Part shown: positions 12,086-18,205 of the stretch, one piece after another | Position numbering within the stretch: position 1 is the stretch's first letter | Layout: every line of letters starts with the position of its first letter | Assembly (NCBI GenBank): GCA_014695325.1 | Contig: JACJNZ010000029.1 | Location: 372,001 to 436,000, forward strand | DNA length: 64,000 nt | Source of the DNA: Cyanobacteria bacterium FACHB-502 | Lineage (GTDB): Bacteria; Cyanobacteriota; Cyanobacteriia; Elainellales; Elainellaceae | Direction: 5' to 3' | Notes under the pieces: model-generated | Told to the model about the DNA's origin: nothing | Databases searched by the model: none | What the model saw: only the letters and a program-made list of their open reading frames with translations | Translations under genes and position numbers: made by a program

Positions 12086-12469
12086 ATGAACGCGAAGCGA
12101 ATTTTAATCATCGATGACGAAGAAGACATTCGAGAAATTGCACAAGTAAGTTTGAACCTTATGAAAGCATGGGATGTTGTCACCGCCGCTTCGGGTGAAG
12201 AAGGTACGAAACTAGCAATCCTGACCCAGCCCGACGCCATTCTTCTAGATGCAATGATGCCTGAGGTAGATGGAGTCGAGACGTTAAAACGGCTCCAGAC
12301 GCACCCCGCAACGCGAGTAATTCCAGTCATCATGCTAACAGGGGCAACGCAACCTTCAAAGCGGCAAATTTATCTTCAGGCAGGAGCCAGAGCGATTGTG
12401 CAGAAACCCTTCGATCCGGCTCAGCTTGGCTGTCAGATTGCGGCTGCTCTGGAGTGGGCACAGACATAG
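12086..12469 (+). CDS. Single-domain response regulator (CheY-like)
   Basis: A 127-residue stand-alone receiver domain. Acid pair in LIIDDEEDIRE (D10, D11), phospho-acceptor D55 in AILLDAMMPEVDG, T85 and K107 (QKPFDP) are all present, so it should be phosphorylatable. There is no output domain, so it must act by protein contact or as a phosphate relay. The nearest upstream signalling gene is a decayed histidine kinase on the opposite strand; the next gene downstream is an ABC exporter 113 bp away with its own ribosome site. Cognate kinase unknown. Confidence 0.93.
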   Translation: MNAKRILIIDDEEDIREIAQVSLNLMKAWDVVTAASGEEGTKLAILTQPDAILLDAMMPEVDGVETLKRLQTHPATRVIPVIMLTGATQPSKRQIYLQAGARAIVQKPFDPAQLGCQIAAALEWAQT

Positions 12470-12582: not shown

Positions 12583-14457
12583 ATGAAGCCTCGCCGTCCT
12601 GCTACTGATTTGTCTGCCTTGCATCCTGCCCCTGCCGTTCATCCACTTCGCCGTCTGCTGGACTATGGGCGACCCTATCGATCGCAGATGCGACTGGCAA
12701 CGCTCTGTTCAATTTTGAATAAATTTTTTGATCTGGCTCCTCCTGTCCTGATCGGTGTGGCGGTGGATGTGGCAGTGAATCAGCAAAACTCCTGGCTGGC
12801 AAATCTGGGGATAGTGAACATTCGATCGCAGTTTGTGATTTTGGCGATTCTCACGTTTATCATCTGGAGTCTGGAGTCAATTTTTGAATATGCCTACGGG
12901 TGGCTATGGCGCAACCTGGCACAGAAGCTTCAACACGACATGAGACTCAATGCCTACCAGCATTTGCAGGAGCTAGAGCTAGAGTATTTTGAGGCGAGAG
13001 ACAGCGGCAGATTGATGTCAATTCTCAACGACGATATCAACCAGCTAGAGCGGTTTCTTGACTTTGGCGCGAACGATATTTTGCAGGTGCTTACAACAGT
13101 GCTTGTGATTGGGGCGGGCTTTTTTATCCTGGCTCCCAGTGTGGCGTGGATGGCAATGCTGCCGATTCCGTTTATTTTGTGGGGGTCGATCGCTTTTCAA
13201 AAACTGCTTGCGCCGAGATATGCAGACGTGCGCGAGAAAGTGAGCCTACTCAGTAGCCGCTTGTCGAATAATCTGGGCGGCATTGTCACGATCAAAAGCT
13301 TCACCACCGAAGCGTATGAGGTCGATCGTCTGCGTCAAGAAAGTGAGGCATATCAGCAAAGCAACCGCCGCGCCATTGCCCTCAGTGCTGCCTTTGTACC
13401 GCTGATTCGGATCATTATTTTGCTGGGATTTACGGCTTTGCTGGTGTTTGGTGGTCTGCAAACGGTGGAAGGCAAGCTGGCAGTGGGAACTTATAGCGTC
13501 CTGGTCTTCATGATTCAGCGATTGCTGTGGCCCCTCACCCGGCTGGGCGAAACGCTCGATCAGTATCAGCGGGCAATGGCTTCGATCAATCGCGTTATGG
13601 GCTTGCTCGATACCCCAATCGCCATTCATTCTGGCGAAATTGCCCTCAATCGCAACGGTTCCACGCCACCTGCCCCAAGCCTGCATCCGGCCAACGGCTT
13701 CCATGCCTCAACGTCCACGGTACGCGGTGAACTGGTGCTAAAAGACGTAACCTTTGGCTACCGCGATCGTCCTCCGGTGATTCAAGACCTGTCGCTGCAT
13801 ATTCCTGCCGGAAAAACAATCGCGATCGTTGGCTCTACCGGATCGGGCAAAAGTACGCTGGTAAAGCTCTTGCTGCGGCTTTATGAAATCCAGTCGGGCA
13901 GCATCACTCTGGACGGCATCGATATTCGCGATCTGGAACTGCATAGTCTGCGGCAGGCGATCGGCTGGGTCAGTCAGGATGTGTTTCTATTTCACGGCTC
14001 TGTTCTGGAAAATATTATCTACGGCGACCCCAGCGCAAGCTTGTCAGAAGCGATCGCCGCTGCCAAAATTGCCGAAGCCCATGACTTTATCGAACAGTTG
14101 CCCCAGGGCTACGACACGATCGTCGGTGAACGGGGACAAAAGCTTTCCGGTGGTCAGCGGCAGCGACTCGCCATCGCCCGTGCTGTGCTGAAAAATCCGC
14201 CGATCCTGATCCTGGACGAAGCCACCTCTGCCGTTGATAACGAAACCGAAGCCGCCATTCAGCGATCGCTCGACCAGATCACCCAAAACCGCACAACGAT
14301 CGCGATCGCCCACCGCCTCTCGACCATCCGCAACGCCGATCGAATCTACGTGATGGAATACGGCAGGCTGATCGAACAGGGCAAACACGAGGAATTGATC
14401 GATCGACAGGGCGTGTATGCAAGCTTATGGCGGGTGCAGTCCGGGATTCGATCGTAG
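12583..14457 (+). CDS. ABC transporter, fused permease and ATP-binding protein (exporter type)
   Basis: A 624-residue half-transporter expected to dimerise in the inner membrane and export a lipid, peptide or drug. Six transmembrane helices fall in residues about 40-320, with a [14 protein letters not shown]-type linker. The nucleotide-binding domain has Walker [10 protein letters not shown] (417-425), the Q-loop in [10 protein letters not shown], signature LSGGQRQR (starting at 521), Walker [13 protein letters not shown] and the H-loop IAHRLSTI, all intact. AAGGA lies about 12 bases before the ATG at 12583. A Pro/Ser-rich insert (about 360-380) separates the two halves. It is convergent with the methyltransferase gene (4 bp gap). 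Substrate not predictable. Confidence 0.95.
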
Positions 14458-14461
14458 TGGA

Positions 14462-15103
14462 TCAATTGCGCTGAGCAATTACCGCATAAAAAGGGTCAGT
14501 TCCGCCAATCCCCAACATTTGCAGGAAACTGGGAACGTTGCCCTGCCGCATCACCACTTCGGGTTCGCTGAAACCGGGAATCGCTTTGAAATAGCGTTTC
14601 ACTAGCTCCACGCGATCGTCTTCAGAGCCATCTCGCCACGCCTGAATCGCCTTCTGGTAAAACATCCGATTCGAGAAGCTGACGATCGCAATCCCACCCG
14701 GTTTCAAAACGCGGTGAATCTCCGCAAACACCGCTTCGGGACGCTGAAGATACTGCACGGAAACCGTATTCAGCACGGCATCAAAGGACTGATCAGGCAG
14801 GGGAAAAAGCTGATTGTCGTTCAAATTCTGCACAAAGTAGTGATCCAGACGCGGATTGCGGGCAAGCTCCTCGGCGTTGAGTCCGTGTCCTTCGACGTGA
14901 GCAAACTTCATCTCGTCCGGCAGATGGGAAACCCAGCTACTCATCATGTCAAAAATGCGCGTATCAGGCTTCAGCCGTTCCCGGTACAGGTCGGTCAACT
15001 GCTGAATAAAATGCTCATCGACGTGGGTGACAAATCGCGGCACGCTGTAAAACTCGCGATCGTCCGATTCATCCAGCTTGGTGCGTTGAGGGGGTTGCAG
15101 CAT
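14462..15103 (-). CDS. Class I SAM-dependent methyltransferase
   Basis: A 213-residue methyltransferase of the Methyltransf_11 type. Seen: a degenerate SAM-binding region (RIFDMMSSWVSHLP), the LPDQSFDAVLNTVSVQYL segment (motif IV region), and HRVLKPGGIAIVSFSNRMF (motif V/VI). The canonical motif I glycine cluster is replaced by MMSSWVSH; I recall this in a family of cyanobacterial methyltransferases, so it may be normal for the group. The start is placed at ATG 15103; an in-frame TTG three codons upstream is possible. Ends 4 bp from the convergent ABC gene. Substrate unknown. Confidence 0.85.
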   Translation of the reverse strand: MLQPPQRTKLDESDDREFYSVPRFVTHVDEHFIQQLTDLYRERLKPDTRIFDMMSSWVSHLPDEMKFAHVEGHGLNAEELARNPRLDHYFVQNLNDNQLFPLPDQSFDAVLNTVSVQYLQRPEAVFAEIHRVLKPGGIAIVSFSNRMFYQKAIQAWRDGSEDDRVELVKRYFKAIPGFSEPEVVMRQGNVPSFLQMLGIGGTDPFYAVIAQRN

Positions 15104-15355
15104 CGGGGGCAATAATCATGACTCTACTCTTCCTAGTTTAGAAAACTTATTGCAGGAAACGAGTTGAGCAAAGGCTTGTCCCAAGCGGCTTGTCAGGAAG
15201 GCTATCAGATTTGAGCTAAGCAATTTCACGGGCTGAAGCGTTTTGCACCAGAAGCAGCAACGCCAAAAAAACGAGTACATTTACATACCCGCTGACAGGA
15301 ATTTACTTGATATGGTGTAGGCGAATTAATTTTATTCTTAACCTTAGCATAACCT

Positions 15356-16264
15356 ATGAAACGACGCAACTTTATTGTTTGTTCTACGTTGTTCGTCGTC
15401 TCCAGTTGCACAGCCGCAACAACACAGCCAAACCGCACGAGTGGCAACCCATCTGCTGGAACTCAGATGAGCAAGCCTGAAAAACTGCGCTTTGCGGTGT
15501 CTGATGTCAAAGGTATCGAGGATCTGCAAAAGGACTATGAAGCACTGCGAGTTGTCCTGGAACAAACGCTGGCAACCCAGGTTGAGTTTTTCCCGGTTGA
15601 GAGCTACATCGCGGCGGCTTCGGCTTTGCAGCAGGATCAGGTCGATCTGGTGTTCACGGGTCCGTCGGAATATGTGGTGATGCGTGCCCGCACGAATGCG
15701 GTTCCGGTTGCCGCCATTAAACGCGACAGGTACTACCCGGTGGTTGCGGTTTTGGCAAATCGTAATATTCAGTCGCTGAATGACTTGAAGGGTAAGACGA
15801 TCGCGATGTGGGAAGTGGGTTCGACCAGCGGCTATCTGGGTCCAACAAAGCTGTTAATCGATGCCGGGCTAGACCCTAAAACCGATGTCAAAATCGAGCT
15901 GATCGGCAAGAAAGGACTTCCAGCCCTCAAAGACGGCAAAGTAGATGCTTGGGCAGGCTCAATTCGGCGATACGAGCAGTTTCTAGAATCTGAACAACTG
16001 ACTCCAAACAATTTGCCGCTATTAACCAAAGGAGCCGATTTACCCGCTGATCCCTTTGTGGTGAGCAGTAAGCTGGATGCCGAATTTGTCGCAGAAATGC
16101 GGAAACAGTTGTTTCAGAACCAGGACAAGCTTTTAGAAGCGATCGCCCCGGCGGATGGTGCAAAGTTTACTGGAGCCAAATTAATTGAGGCGCAGGATGT
16201 CGATTACGACATGATTCGCGAAGTCTATCGAGCGATCGGACAGGGTGCGTTTTTGCAGGGCTAA
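15356..16264 (+). CDS. PhnD-like periplasmic binding lipoprotein (phosphate/phosphite/phosphonate type)
   Basis: A 302-residue substrate-binding protein. The N-terminus MKRRNFIVCSTLFVV followed by SSC is a lipoprotein signal with the acylated Cys at 18. The mature part has the PhnD/SsuA-like pattern: LRFAVSDVKGIEDLQKDYE, the SYIAAASALQQDQVDLVFTG strand-helix, NDLKGKTIAMWEVGSTSGYL and KDGKVDAWAGSIRRYEQF, and the C-terminal EVYRAIGQGAFLQG. There is no permease or ATPase gene nearby. Instead a membrane histidine kinase follows by 24 bp in the same direction, so this may be a ligand-presenting sensor subunit rather than a transporter component. Ligand identity is not provable from sequence. Confidence 0.9.
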   Translation: MKRRNFIVCSTLFVVSSCTAATTQPNRTSGNPSAGTQMSKPEKLRFAVSDVKGIEDLQKDYEALRVVLEQTLATQVEFFPVESYIAAASALQQDQVDLVFTGPSEYVVMRARTNAVPVAAIKRDRYYPVVAVLANRNIQSLNDLKGKTIAMWEVGSTSGYLGPTKLLIDAGLDPKTDVKIELIGKKGLPALKDGKVDAWAGSIRRYEQFLESEQLTPNNLPLLTKGADLPADPFVVSSKLDAEFVAEMRKQLFQNQDKLLEAIAPADGAKFTGAKLIEAQDVDYDMIREVYRAIGQGAFLQG

Positions 16265-16288
16265 TTTGAATGGCGTTAGTTTTTGGTT

Positions 16289-18205
16289 ATGCATAAATTT
16301 TGGGAACCGGGTAGAGCCAACTCCCCCAACGAGGTAACTGCTTCACATCGTTCTGACCCCTGCGCTGATTCGAGTTCACCAGAAATCACGCAGAATGCGC
16401 TTTGTAAATGGTGGGCTAGAGTGTCGCAACCGGGTATTGCCAGAAAAATTGGCTATGGCTATATGCTGGCGATTGGGGTTGCTACACTGGGAGCAACGAT
16501 CGGCTTGATCGTGGGTGACTATTACCAGAAACAGGCGCAGACCCAGCTTGCGATCGCCCGTAAGCAACAATCGCTCCTGACGAATCTGGAACACGAAATT
16601 TTAGAACTTCGATCGCATCCCCAACGCCTGGTGATGGTGTTTGGAGACTCAATCTGGTTTGATTTTGAGCGAACAGCATTTCTGACTCGCGTTCGCGAAG
16701 CACAGGAGTTGGTCGCTGAACTCAACGCCTTTATTGAACGCAATCCCCATAATCTGGCGATCGGGGCGACTGGATCAAAAAAGCTGGCAGAAGAATACGA
16801 AACGAACACAGAAGCCTATGCTGACTGGGTGCGAACGATTTGGCAGCAGCTCAACCCAGGCAGCCTGACTCAGCCGGAAATTCCAATTGCTCAACAAAGC
16901 CTCCTGGCATCTCTGCGGCAAGAACCCGCGATCAGGCTGGATGTCAAGTTTGAGCAGCTTGCAGAGCAATTACATCAAGCCCTGGAAACCGCGCAGAAGC
17001 AGCAGGATGATGCCGACATCCAGCTACAAACTGCGGAAGCCCTGCGGCTGCAAATTATCCTGACGGGTCTGGCAGTTGCAGCCGCCATCGCAGCTCTGCT
17101 AGCACTCTACACCAGCCGTGCCATTGCTCGACCAATCGAAGCCGTCACTCAGGTTGCACAGCGAGTCAGCCGTGAGTCAGATTTTCAGTTGCAGGCTCCA
17201 GTTCTCAGCCAGGATGAAGTGGGGGTTTTGGCAATTGCTTTTAACAATCTGATTCGGAAAGTGGCTGAGTACACCCATGCGCTCGAACTCAGCCGTCAAA
17301 CGCTAGAAGACCGTGTAGAGGAGCGAACCCAGGAACTTCAGCAGGCACTTGACCATGTGAAGAAAGCCCAGTTGCAGCTCGTGCAGGCAGAAAAAATGTC
17401 CAGTTTGGGGCAGCTTGTGGCGGGCGTTGCCCACGAAATTAACAATCCAGTGAACTTCATTCACGGGAATCTCAGCCACGCCAGTCAATACACCCAGGAT
17501 TTGCTGGAACTGCTGGATCTTTACCAGTGCCAACTGCCCAATCTCCCGTCGGCAATTCAGGACAAAGAAGAGGACATTGATCTGGCTTTTTTGCGCCACG
17601 ACTTACCTAAACTGCTGCAATCGATGAAGGTTGGGGCGGAGCGAATTCGAGAAATTGTTCAATCGCTGCGAACTTTTTCCCGGCTGGATGAAGCCGCAAT
17701 CAAAGAAGTGGATATTCATGAAGGACTGGACAGTACGCTGATGATTCTGCAAAATCGCCTGAAGGGGAAATCCGATTATCCAGCAATCAAGGTTATCAGG
17801 GAGTATGGCGTTTTGCCCCTGGTTGAATGCTACGCCGGACAGCTCAATCAGGTATTTATGAATATTTTGAGCAATGCGATCGATGCTCTAGAAGAACGGA
17901 ATATTCAGCAATCGCTCGTTGAAATCGCAGCCCCGCCCCGCACAATTACCATCCGCACTCAGGCGATCGATCGCACTCAAGTTGCCGTTTGGATCAAAGA
18001 CAATGGACCGGGTATGACTTCGGAAGTTCAACAGCAGTTATTTAATCCGTTTTTTACAACAAAGCCTGTGGGTAAAGGAACAGGAATGGGGATGTCAATT
18101 AGCTATCAGATCATTACTGAACGTCACCGAGGAAGTTTAGAGTGTATTTCTGAGCTGGGGAAAGGGACGGAATTTGTGATAACGATTCCAATTCGATCCA
18201 TGTAA
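16289..18205 (+). CDS. Membrane sensor histidine kinase with HAMP domain
   Basis: A 638-residue kinase. Start at ATG 16289 (an in-frame TTG lies two codons upstream). Layout: cytoplasmic N-terminus, transmembrane helix (about 50-72), periplasmic helical sensor of about 190 residues, second helix (about 258-282), HAMP (SRAIARPIEAVTQVAQRV), coiled coil, dimerisation domain with phospho-acceptor H382 in VAGVAHEINNPVNF, and ATPase domain with FMNILSNAIDAL, DNGPGM and GKGTGMGMSI. No receiver domain, so it should phosphorylate a separate regulator, none of which is adjacent. It follows the PhnD-like lipoprotein by 24 bp and probably shares its transcript, suggesting that the loaded binding protein is read by the periplasmic domain. 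Confidence 0.93.
   Translation: MHKFWEPGRANSPNEVTASHRSDPCADSSSPEITQNALCKWWARVSQPGIARKIGYGYMLAIGVATLGATIGLIVGDYYQKQAQTQLAIARKQQSLLTNLEHEILELRSHPQRLVMVFGDSIWFDFERTAFLTRVREAQELVAELNAFIERNPHNLAIGATGSKKLAEEYETNTEAYADWVRTIWQQLNPGSLTQPEIPIAQQSLLASLRQEPAIRLDVKFEQLAEQLHQALETAQKQQDDADIQLQTAEALRLQIILTGLAVAAAIAALLALYTSRAIARPIEAVTQVAQRVSRESDFQLQAPVLSQDEVGVLAIAFNNLIRKVAEYTHALELSRQTLEDRVEERTQELQQALDHVKKAQLQLVQAEKMSSLGQLVAGVAHEINNPVNFIHGNLSHASQYTQDLLELLDLYQCQLPNLPSAIQDKEEDIDLAFLRHDLPKLLQSMKVGAERIREIVQSLRTFSRLDEAAIKEVDIHEGLDSTLMILQNRLKGKSDYPAIKVIREYGVLPLVECYAGQLNQVFMNILSNAIDALEERNIQQSLVEIAAPPRTITIRTQAIDRTQVAVWIKDNGPGMTSEVQQQLFNPFFTTKPVGKGTGMGMSISYQIITERHRGSLECISELGKGTEFVITIPIRSM

Follow-up and report, generated by a model that had tools for sequence, protein, structure and literature searches.

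The genome of Cyanobacteria bacterium FACHB-502 (6.6 Mb) encodes, within positions 15356-18205 of an analysed stretch of 64,000 nucleotides (contig JACJNZ010000029.1, positions 372,001 to 436,000; hereafter the window), a PhnD-superfamily substrate-binding lipoprotein whose gene is followed on the same strand, after a spacer of 24 bp (16265-16288), by the gene of a membrane histidine kinase. We consider it probable that these two genes specify an extracytoplasmic sensor, in which the lipoprotein would receive a ligand and the kinase would transduce the signal, and most likely that the lipoprotein reports an external small molecule rather than importing it. The designation 'sensing pair', which had been put forward in an earlier annotation of the window (hereafter the original prediction) in preference to an importer, is well supported by comparative genomics, as it is backed by the conserved adjacency of the two genes across cyanobacteria and by the search of the genome, in which no orphan PhnC/PhnE pair was found. 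Pairs of binding protein and kinase are already known, and the addition made here is this cyanobacterial clade, for which our searches of open-licence papers in PubMed Central (PMC) gave no description.

Conserved adjacency of lipoprotein and kinase

The distance of 24 bp between the lipoprotein gene and a HAMP histidine kinase, as given by the original prediction, was confirmed from the open reading frames (ORFs) and Pfam domains, and the conservation that it proposed as a check was found in two samples. A profile search of genome contigs with alignment A1 returned 44 named loci, all of them cyanobacterial (L092, L108, L110 and L114 recur among the stretches taken from the relatives' genomes), and in 39 of these the lipoprotein gene is followed on the same strand by the kinase as the next ORF of at least 100 amino acids, counting three loci with a second, tandem lipoprotein gene before the kinase (L086, L106 and L108) and two with a split kinase frame (L083 and L103). 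The five exceptions are a locus with the kinase upstream (L101), one with a single opposite gene in between (L114), two at contig edges (L088 and L095) and an importer operon (L092). Furthermore, a phylum survey of 244 genomes (lipoprotein matches at E <= 1e-60, with a parallel search for the sensor domain of the kinase) yielded 22 lipoprotein matches in 21 genomes and 16 of 109 genera, with the sensor domain directly downstream in 18 cases and in a nineteenth (G198:C10) that was found by reading the locus; the remaining three matches lie 306 bases from a contig end (G289) or in PhnC/PhnE importer operons (G131 and G120). At the laxer threshold of E <= 1e-15, the lipoprotein is matched in 13 of 60 relatives, weak and fragmentary matches counted. 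Moreover, the distance matrices of lipoprotein and sensor correlate over 31 pairs (r 0.65, reached in 0 of 5000 permutations), a value from which species relatedness has not been removed. A candidate fusion of binding protein and kinase in G057 (an open frame of 1117 amino acids) was rejected, since the frame of the binding protein is closed by a stop ahead of the kinase gene.

The window kinase carries HAMP, HisKA and HATPase_c domains above the Pfam cut-offs, which place it among the HAMP sensor histidine kinases. Pfam found no receiver domain in it, and the pair has no response-regulator gene next to it in the window, two genes standing between it and the closest receiver protein observed (12086-12469). 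A receiver domain is present in the kinase of all ten long relatives tested (L038, L085, L089, L093, L099, L100, L104, L109, L111 and L114), and in L100 an extra receiver-kinase gene follows the kinase. Neither the Pfam sensor families (at E 0.001) nor Foldseek (at E <= 0.001) gave a match for the periplasmic part. The AlphaFold2 model of positions 16400-17260 is all helical (predicted local distance difference test (pLDDT) 81.7, predicted template modelling score (pTM) 0.63), with two long membrane-type helices bracketing a helical segment that by our reading spans about 175 residues; the two-helix architecture of the original prediction held, and its estimate for the sensor was about 190 residues.

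The genes, domains, conserved adjacency, predicted folds and pocket residues were computed here, and from them we infer a mechanism in which anchoring to the membrane, docking, the direction of the signal and its output are conditional. The lipoprotein would be anchored in the membrane through Cys18 and would close over a small ligand, possibly an anion or zwitterion whose acid group would be held by the Ser-Thr-Ser (STS) helix and Tyr126 beneath a conserved acidic cap (Asp232 and Glu105). The closed (or open) lipoprotein would then dock on the kinase at its periplasmic bundle of helices, and docking would alter kinase autophosphorylation via the HAMP domain. By analogy, the pair may work like AioX-AioS and TorT-TorS. 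In the AioX-AioS-AioR and ArrX/ArxX systems, as in the pair, a PhnD-fold binding protein is encoded beside a histidine kinase and serves sensing rather than import (as described in part of PMC5908839). In contrast to the AioX/ArrX/ArxX clusters, no response regulator gene (XSR) adjoins the window pair, and the lipoprotein has neither the pocket Cys (AioX Cys106) nor the pocket His (AioX His192); because these pocket features are absent, we do not class it as an AioX member. TorT-TorS joins a binding protein to a kinase with a helical periplasmic sensor, which the predicted bundle of the window kinase may resemble, and TorT is structurally and phylogenetically distinct from AioX (according to a passage of PMC5908839). 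In QseG-QseE, judged from the title of its structure entry, the helical sensor of the kinase is in complex with a lipoprotein, QseG being listed there as an outer-membrane one.

Several observations weigh against the sensing pair. Given its gene order, the lipoprotein might also feed an importer encoded elsewhere, and the gap between lipoprotein and kinase ranges across loci from overlap (by the starts of the ORF caller) to about 1 kb, so that tight co-translation is not general. The best structural matches of the sensor are four-helix receptors and designed bundles (PcaY_PP Z 13.5, Tsr 13.2, a designed bundle 13.2, TorS 12.5, QseE-QseG 11.7), which is weak evidence, as this range, into which TorS falls, is reached by unrelated bundles too. 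Finally, by our reading, 34 of 37 loci of distant sensor relatives have no adjacent binding protein, and the sensor domain thus also occurs without one. In the other three (L048, L049 and L050) a lipoprotein gene of the SBP_bac_3 family directly follows the kinase, an arrangement that a sensor domain docking binding proteins would lead one to expect. Among 13 further loci of unpaired kinases (L150-L162), 12 have no adjacent binding protein, judged from ORF starts; in L156 the next ORF, 0.65 kb downstream of the kinase, is a binding-protein-like gene with no NCBIfam match at E 1e-20. Were the docking reading true, binding proteins would have a recognisable plug in this unnamed domain.

Importers in the same genome and in relatives

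The original prediction had named a PhnC/PhnE pair lacking its own binding protein as the finding that would speak against it, and no such pair was found in the window genome: PhnE-type permeases above 50 bits occur at two loci, namely C71 and, as a fused double permease, C32, each with its own binding protein and ATPase. The genome-wide search for PhnE gave no match inside the 64-kb window, and that for PhnC (150 of 164 candidates scored) matched in the window only the gene at 12583-14457, which Pfam identifies as a fused ABC_membrane and ABC_tran gene of exporter type. The claim that no permease or ATPase gene is near therefore stands for importer genes, which are absent beside the pair, but has to be qualified for this exporter-type gene.

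On the other hand, PhnC and PhnE genes, which are absent beside the lipoprotein gene of the window, adjoin its counterparts in the relatives L092, L165 and L166. The order lipoprotein, ATPase, permease and methyltransferase, all on one strand, is found in L165 (G131), L166 (G120) and L092/L044 (Cyanothece sp. SIO2G6). The ATPases of L165, L166 and L092 score 284.8, 284.7 and 278.6 bits (PhnC cut-off 266.1) and their permeases 266, 259.7 and 269.1 bits (PhnE cut-off 216.7); the methyltransferases differ among loci and fall below the cut-off against many families. In a tree of 54 rows, kinase-linked and importer-linked lipoproteins form one clade of 49 (support 100/99, on a long stem), outside which stand the window genome's own importer proteins, an importer-side protein of L094 and the lipoproteins of another lipoprotein-kinase type (L045 and L053). 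As the root was set at the midpoint and the inner order of the clade is partly unresolved, the tree does not fix the direction of the switch between kinase and importer. The binding proteins of L165, L166 and L092 have the same pocket as the kinase-linked members, and the use of this clade by importer operons (PhnC/PhnE with an S-adenosylmethionine (SAM) methyltransferase) suggests a ligand that can also be transported, as a nutrient or as a toxicant. These operons would offer a direct route to the ligand, via the compound that is imported.

The binding pocket and its candidate ligands

The lipoprotein carries a Phosphonate-bd domain (Pfam, E 3.8e-37) behind a twin-arginine N-terminus and a VSSC lipobox ending in Cys18, signal residues that are kept in alignment A2 (R3 41/42, R4 41/42 and C18 40/42). 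This alignment of 42 rows, which includes the importer-side L094:2664-3581 from outside the clade, also underlies the structure model, the phylum survey and the comparison of its profile with solved structures. Against NCBIfam, the lipoprotein barely passed TIGR01098 (phosphate/phosphite/phosphonate binding proteins; 115.6 bits, cut-off 112) and fell far short of the cut-off for the PhnD equivalog (100 against 261 bits). Its model (pLDDT 90.6) is best matched by apo PtxB (5o2k: Z 24.5, root-mean-square deviation 3.2, 253 aligned), followed by XAC2383 of Xanthomonas citri (5ub3; Z 22.6), HtxB D206N (22.4) and ArrX (22.1), with PhnD and AioX lower; identity in the structural alignment is 22% to ArrX and 18% to AioX. 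XAC2383 is the binding half of a pair of receptor and diguanylate cyclase, which has another output enzyme.

Pocket residues were matched across proteins by sequence alignment, not by superposed coordinates. In A2 we observed conservation of the STS helix (Ser156 39/42, Thr157 41/42, Ser158 32/42), of Tyr126 (42/42), Glu105 (41/42) and the cap residue Asp232 (42/42), and to a lesser degree of Tyr84 (25/42). The position of the His in the STS-H anion motif is mostly occupied by other residues (Glu 16, Lys 8, Asp 7 and His 1 of 42, the last being L094:2664-3581), and the window lipoprotein (P0001), in which the STS is present, has Lys186 there; in the 54-row tree alignment, His occurs at columns 182-190 in 0 of 49 clade rows as against 5 of 5 outside rows. 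With PtxB, HtxB and PhnD the lipoprotein shares the fold, the STS helix and the equivalent of Tyr126, and it differs from their systems in having no adjacent PhnC/PhnE. Its cap is of the HtxB/PhnD type, with Asp232 aligning to HtxB Asp206 and replacing the Tyr that caps the P-H bond in PtxB. The His is missing as in HtxB, but the HtxB pocket residues Trp52, Asn128 and Phe158 are not shared, P0001 having Tyr84, Ser156 and Lys186 instead. The STS-H His is reported to coordinate the third oxygen in PtxB, PhnD and GpxB and to be absent from HtxB (passages of PMC5700983, PMC6629693 and PMC12718374), and AioX to use the corresponding pocket His (a passage of PMC5908839). Because this third-oxygen His is missing from the clade, phosphite, phosphate or phosphonate bound in the usual three-oxygen mode is probably not the ligand; we regard the loss as evidence against an ordinary site of that kind, though not as proof. 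The oxyanion ligand of the original prediction is accordingly not established: the fold is that of PtxB, HtxB and ArrX, but the clade is without the His that PtxB, PhnD, GpxB and AioX use, and the phosphorus and arsenic gene neighbours are suggestive only. We advance tentatively, and with less confidence than in the sensing pair itself, a broader picture in which one family of kinase sensor domains is coupled to unrelated binding lipoproteins (PhnD-like and SBP_bac_3), one His-less clade serves either a kinase or a PhnC/PhnE-methyltransferase importer, and the ligand is new to the PhnD superfamily.

It is possible, though in our estimate doubtful, that the pair senses a carboxylate- or amine-bearing small molecule (a zwitterion) that related genomes import through a PhnC/PhnE-type system. 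The loss of the His would remove the third-oxygen site, yet Asp232 and Glu105 are retained, and the importer proteins of L165, L166 and L092 belong to the clade and have this pocket; moreover, Asp205 of Escherichia coli PhnD, which aligns with Asp232, is described as touching the ligand amine (passages of PMC5700983, PMC12718374 and PMC5908839). HtxB, however, likewise without the His and with the Asp, still binds hypophosphite (part of PMC6629693).

That the pair is an oxyanion sensor of the AioX/ArrX type, reporting arsenate or a phosphorus oxyanion and controlling phosphatase or arsenic genes, we hold to be unlikely, the shared fold (ArrX and PtxB among the best matches) being set against the missing His. 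An arsenite sensor of the AioX type was ruled out by the absence of pocket Cys and His, since the only Cys residues of P0001 are at 9 and 18. The gene neighbours favour the oxyanion sensor in part. In G019 an arsenic island (ArsH, ArsJ, ArsR-family and ACR3, the last being the only ACR3 found in that genome and placed at 5.5 kb from the kinase) flanks the pair together with an alkaline phosphatase; the pair of G006 has ACR3 and a protein with a 5'-nucleotidase domain at 1-4 kb; and the pair of Okeania SIO2B3 has 5'-nucleotidase, ArsC, ArsI and an ACR3 fragment as neighbours (in G019 or Okeania, ArsH, ArsJ, ArsC and ArsI score above the NCBIfam cut-offs). The pairs of L088, L090 and L096 have a divergent 5'-nucleotidase gene, and ArsC- and ArsH-like genes stand about 7 kb from the pair in M. 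vaginatus L079. Yet the ACR3 beside the G006 pair is partial, with an in-frame TGA, at a contig end (a full ACR3 is elsewhere in that genome), and the arsenic island of the window genome is on another contig (L064, G000:C67, 7455-10999: ArsR-like, GAPDH, ArsJ-like and ACR3), where it adjoins an NMT1-type binding protein region.

Phosphatase references were matched in 6 of 48 lipoprotein loci (L037, L038, L088, L090, L096 and L098) and 0 of 52 controls (Fisher p 0.010, uncorrected), four of the six being from close relatives (Okeania, Hydrocoleum and one Microcoleaceae metagenome-assembled genome), and arsenic genes in 5 of 48 (L037, L038, L079, L096 and L098) against 1 of 52 (p 0.10). In both comparisons the reference genes were picked after the loci had been seen, relatedness was uncorrected and the controls were on average shorter (500 kb in 52 as against 695 kb in 48). 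Left out of the set of 48 were L092, as an importer locus, and L039, L042, L044 and L114, as duplicates; an ArsR-like match in L085 was not scored as arsenic, and of the searches comparing loci with controls one was mostly at >40% coverage and the other unfiltered, with PhnC and methyltransferase rows omitted. A ligand assignment from gene neighbours was not accepted on these values, and the link of the pair to phosphatase and arsenic genes is suggestive only. An Aio/Arx/Arr molybdoenzyme was not found among the 10 window proteins scanned with Pfam.

Some importers share several binding proteins. That the lipoprotein serves one of the two PhnC/PhnE-type importers of the genome as such an alternative binding protein, its adjacency to the kinase being non-functional, appears very unlikely, for although importer-linked proteins fall inside the same clade, the same type of kinase stays adjacent across cyanobacterial families while other neighbours change, and both importers have a binding protein of their own.

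Surroundings of the pair and other arrangements

The pair (Table 1) is flanked by a methyltransferase gene and by a gene without a Pfam match. No terminator-like site is listed within the 24-bp gap, and the promoter and terminator scans gave matches no more frequent than in shuffles. The methyltransferase gene (14462-15112, minus strand) is divergent from the lipoprotein gene, with 243 bp between them; beside the pair of G040, which is 74% identical, it is not conserved and PPK2 stands in its place.

Table 1. Coordinates of the pair in the window and of importer operons in related loci
Feature	Position	Strand	Evidence
PhnD-superfamily substrate-binding lipoprotein, 302 amino acids	15356..16264	+	Pfam Phosphonate-bd 128 bits; TIGR01098 115.6 bits
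Signal peptide, twin Arg (residues 3-4) and lipobox Cys18	15356..15409	+	sequence; alignment A2
Membrane histidine kinase, 638 amino acids	16289..18205	+	HAMP, HisKA, HATPase_c; TTG start at 16283 also possible
Kinase sensor part, predicted periplasmic and helical	16517..17044 (limits approximate)	+	AlphaFold2 model
HAMP domain	17111..17257	+	Pfam, kinase residues 275-323
HisKA and HATPase_c kinase core	17405..18196	+	Pfam, residues 373-400 and 518-636
Importer operons	L165 1697-5659; L166 1905-5315; L092 1096-4265		PhnC/PhnE-type with SAM methyltransferase, His-less binding protein

Other arrangements of binding protein and sensor were observed in the same genome: an NMT1-type lipoprotein gene overlapping a histidine kinase gene (L063, G000:C76, 5432-8247), two consecutive DctP binding proteins (of the tripartite ATP-independent periplasmic (TRAP) type) followed by a CHASE3-HAMP histidine kinase (L070, G000:C55, 2547-7144), and a PhnD-like lipoprotein next to a Tll0287-like membrane protein that has HAMP but no kinase domain (L058, G000:C52, 4993-6826). 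A second, separate cyanobacterial class of PhnD-like lipoprotein and kinase (L045 6116-8898 and L053 5210-7998) retains the STS-H motif.

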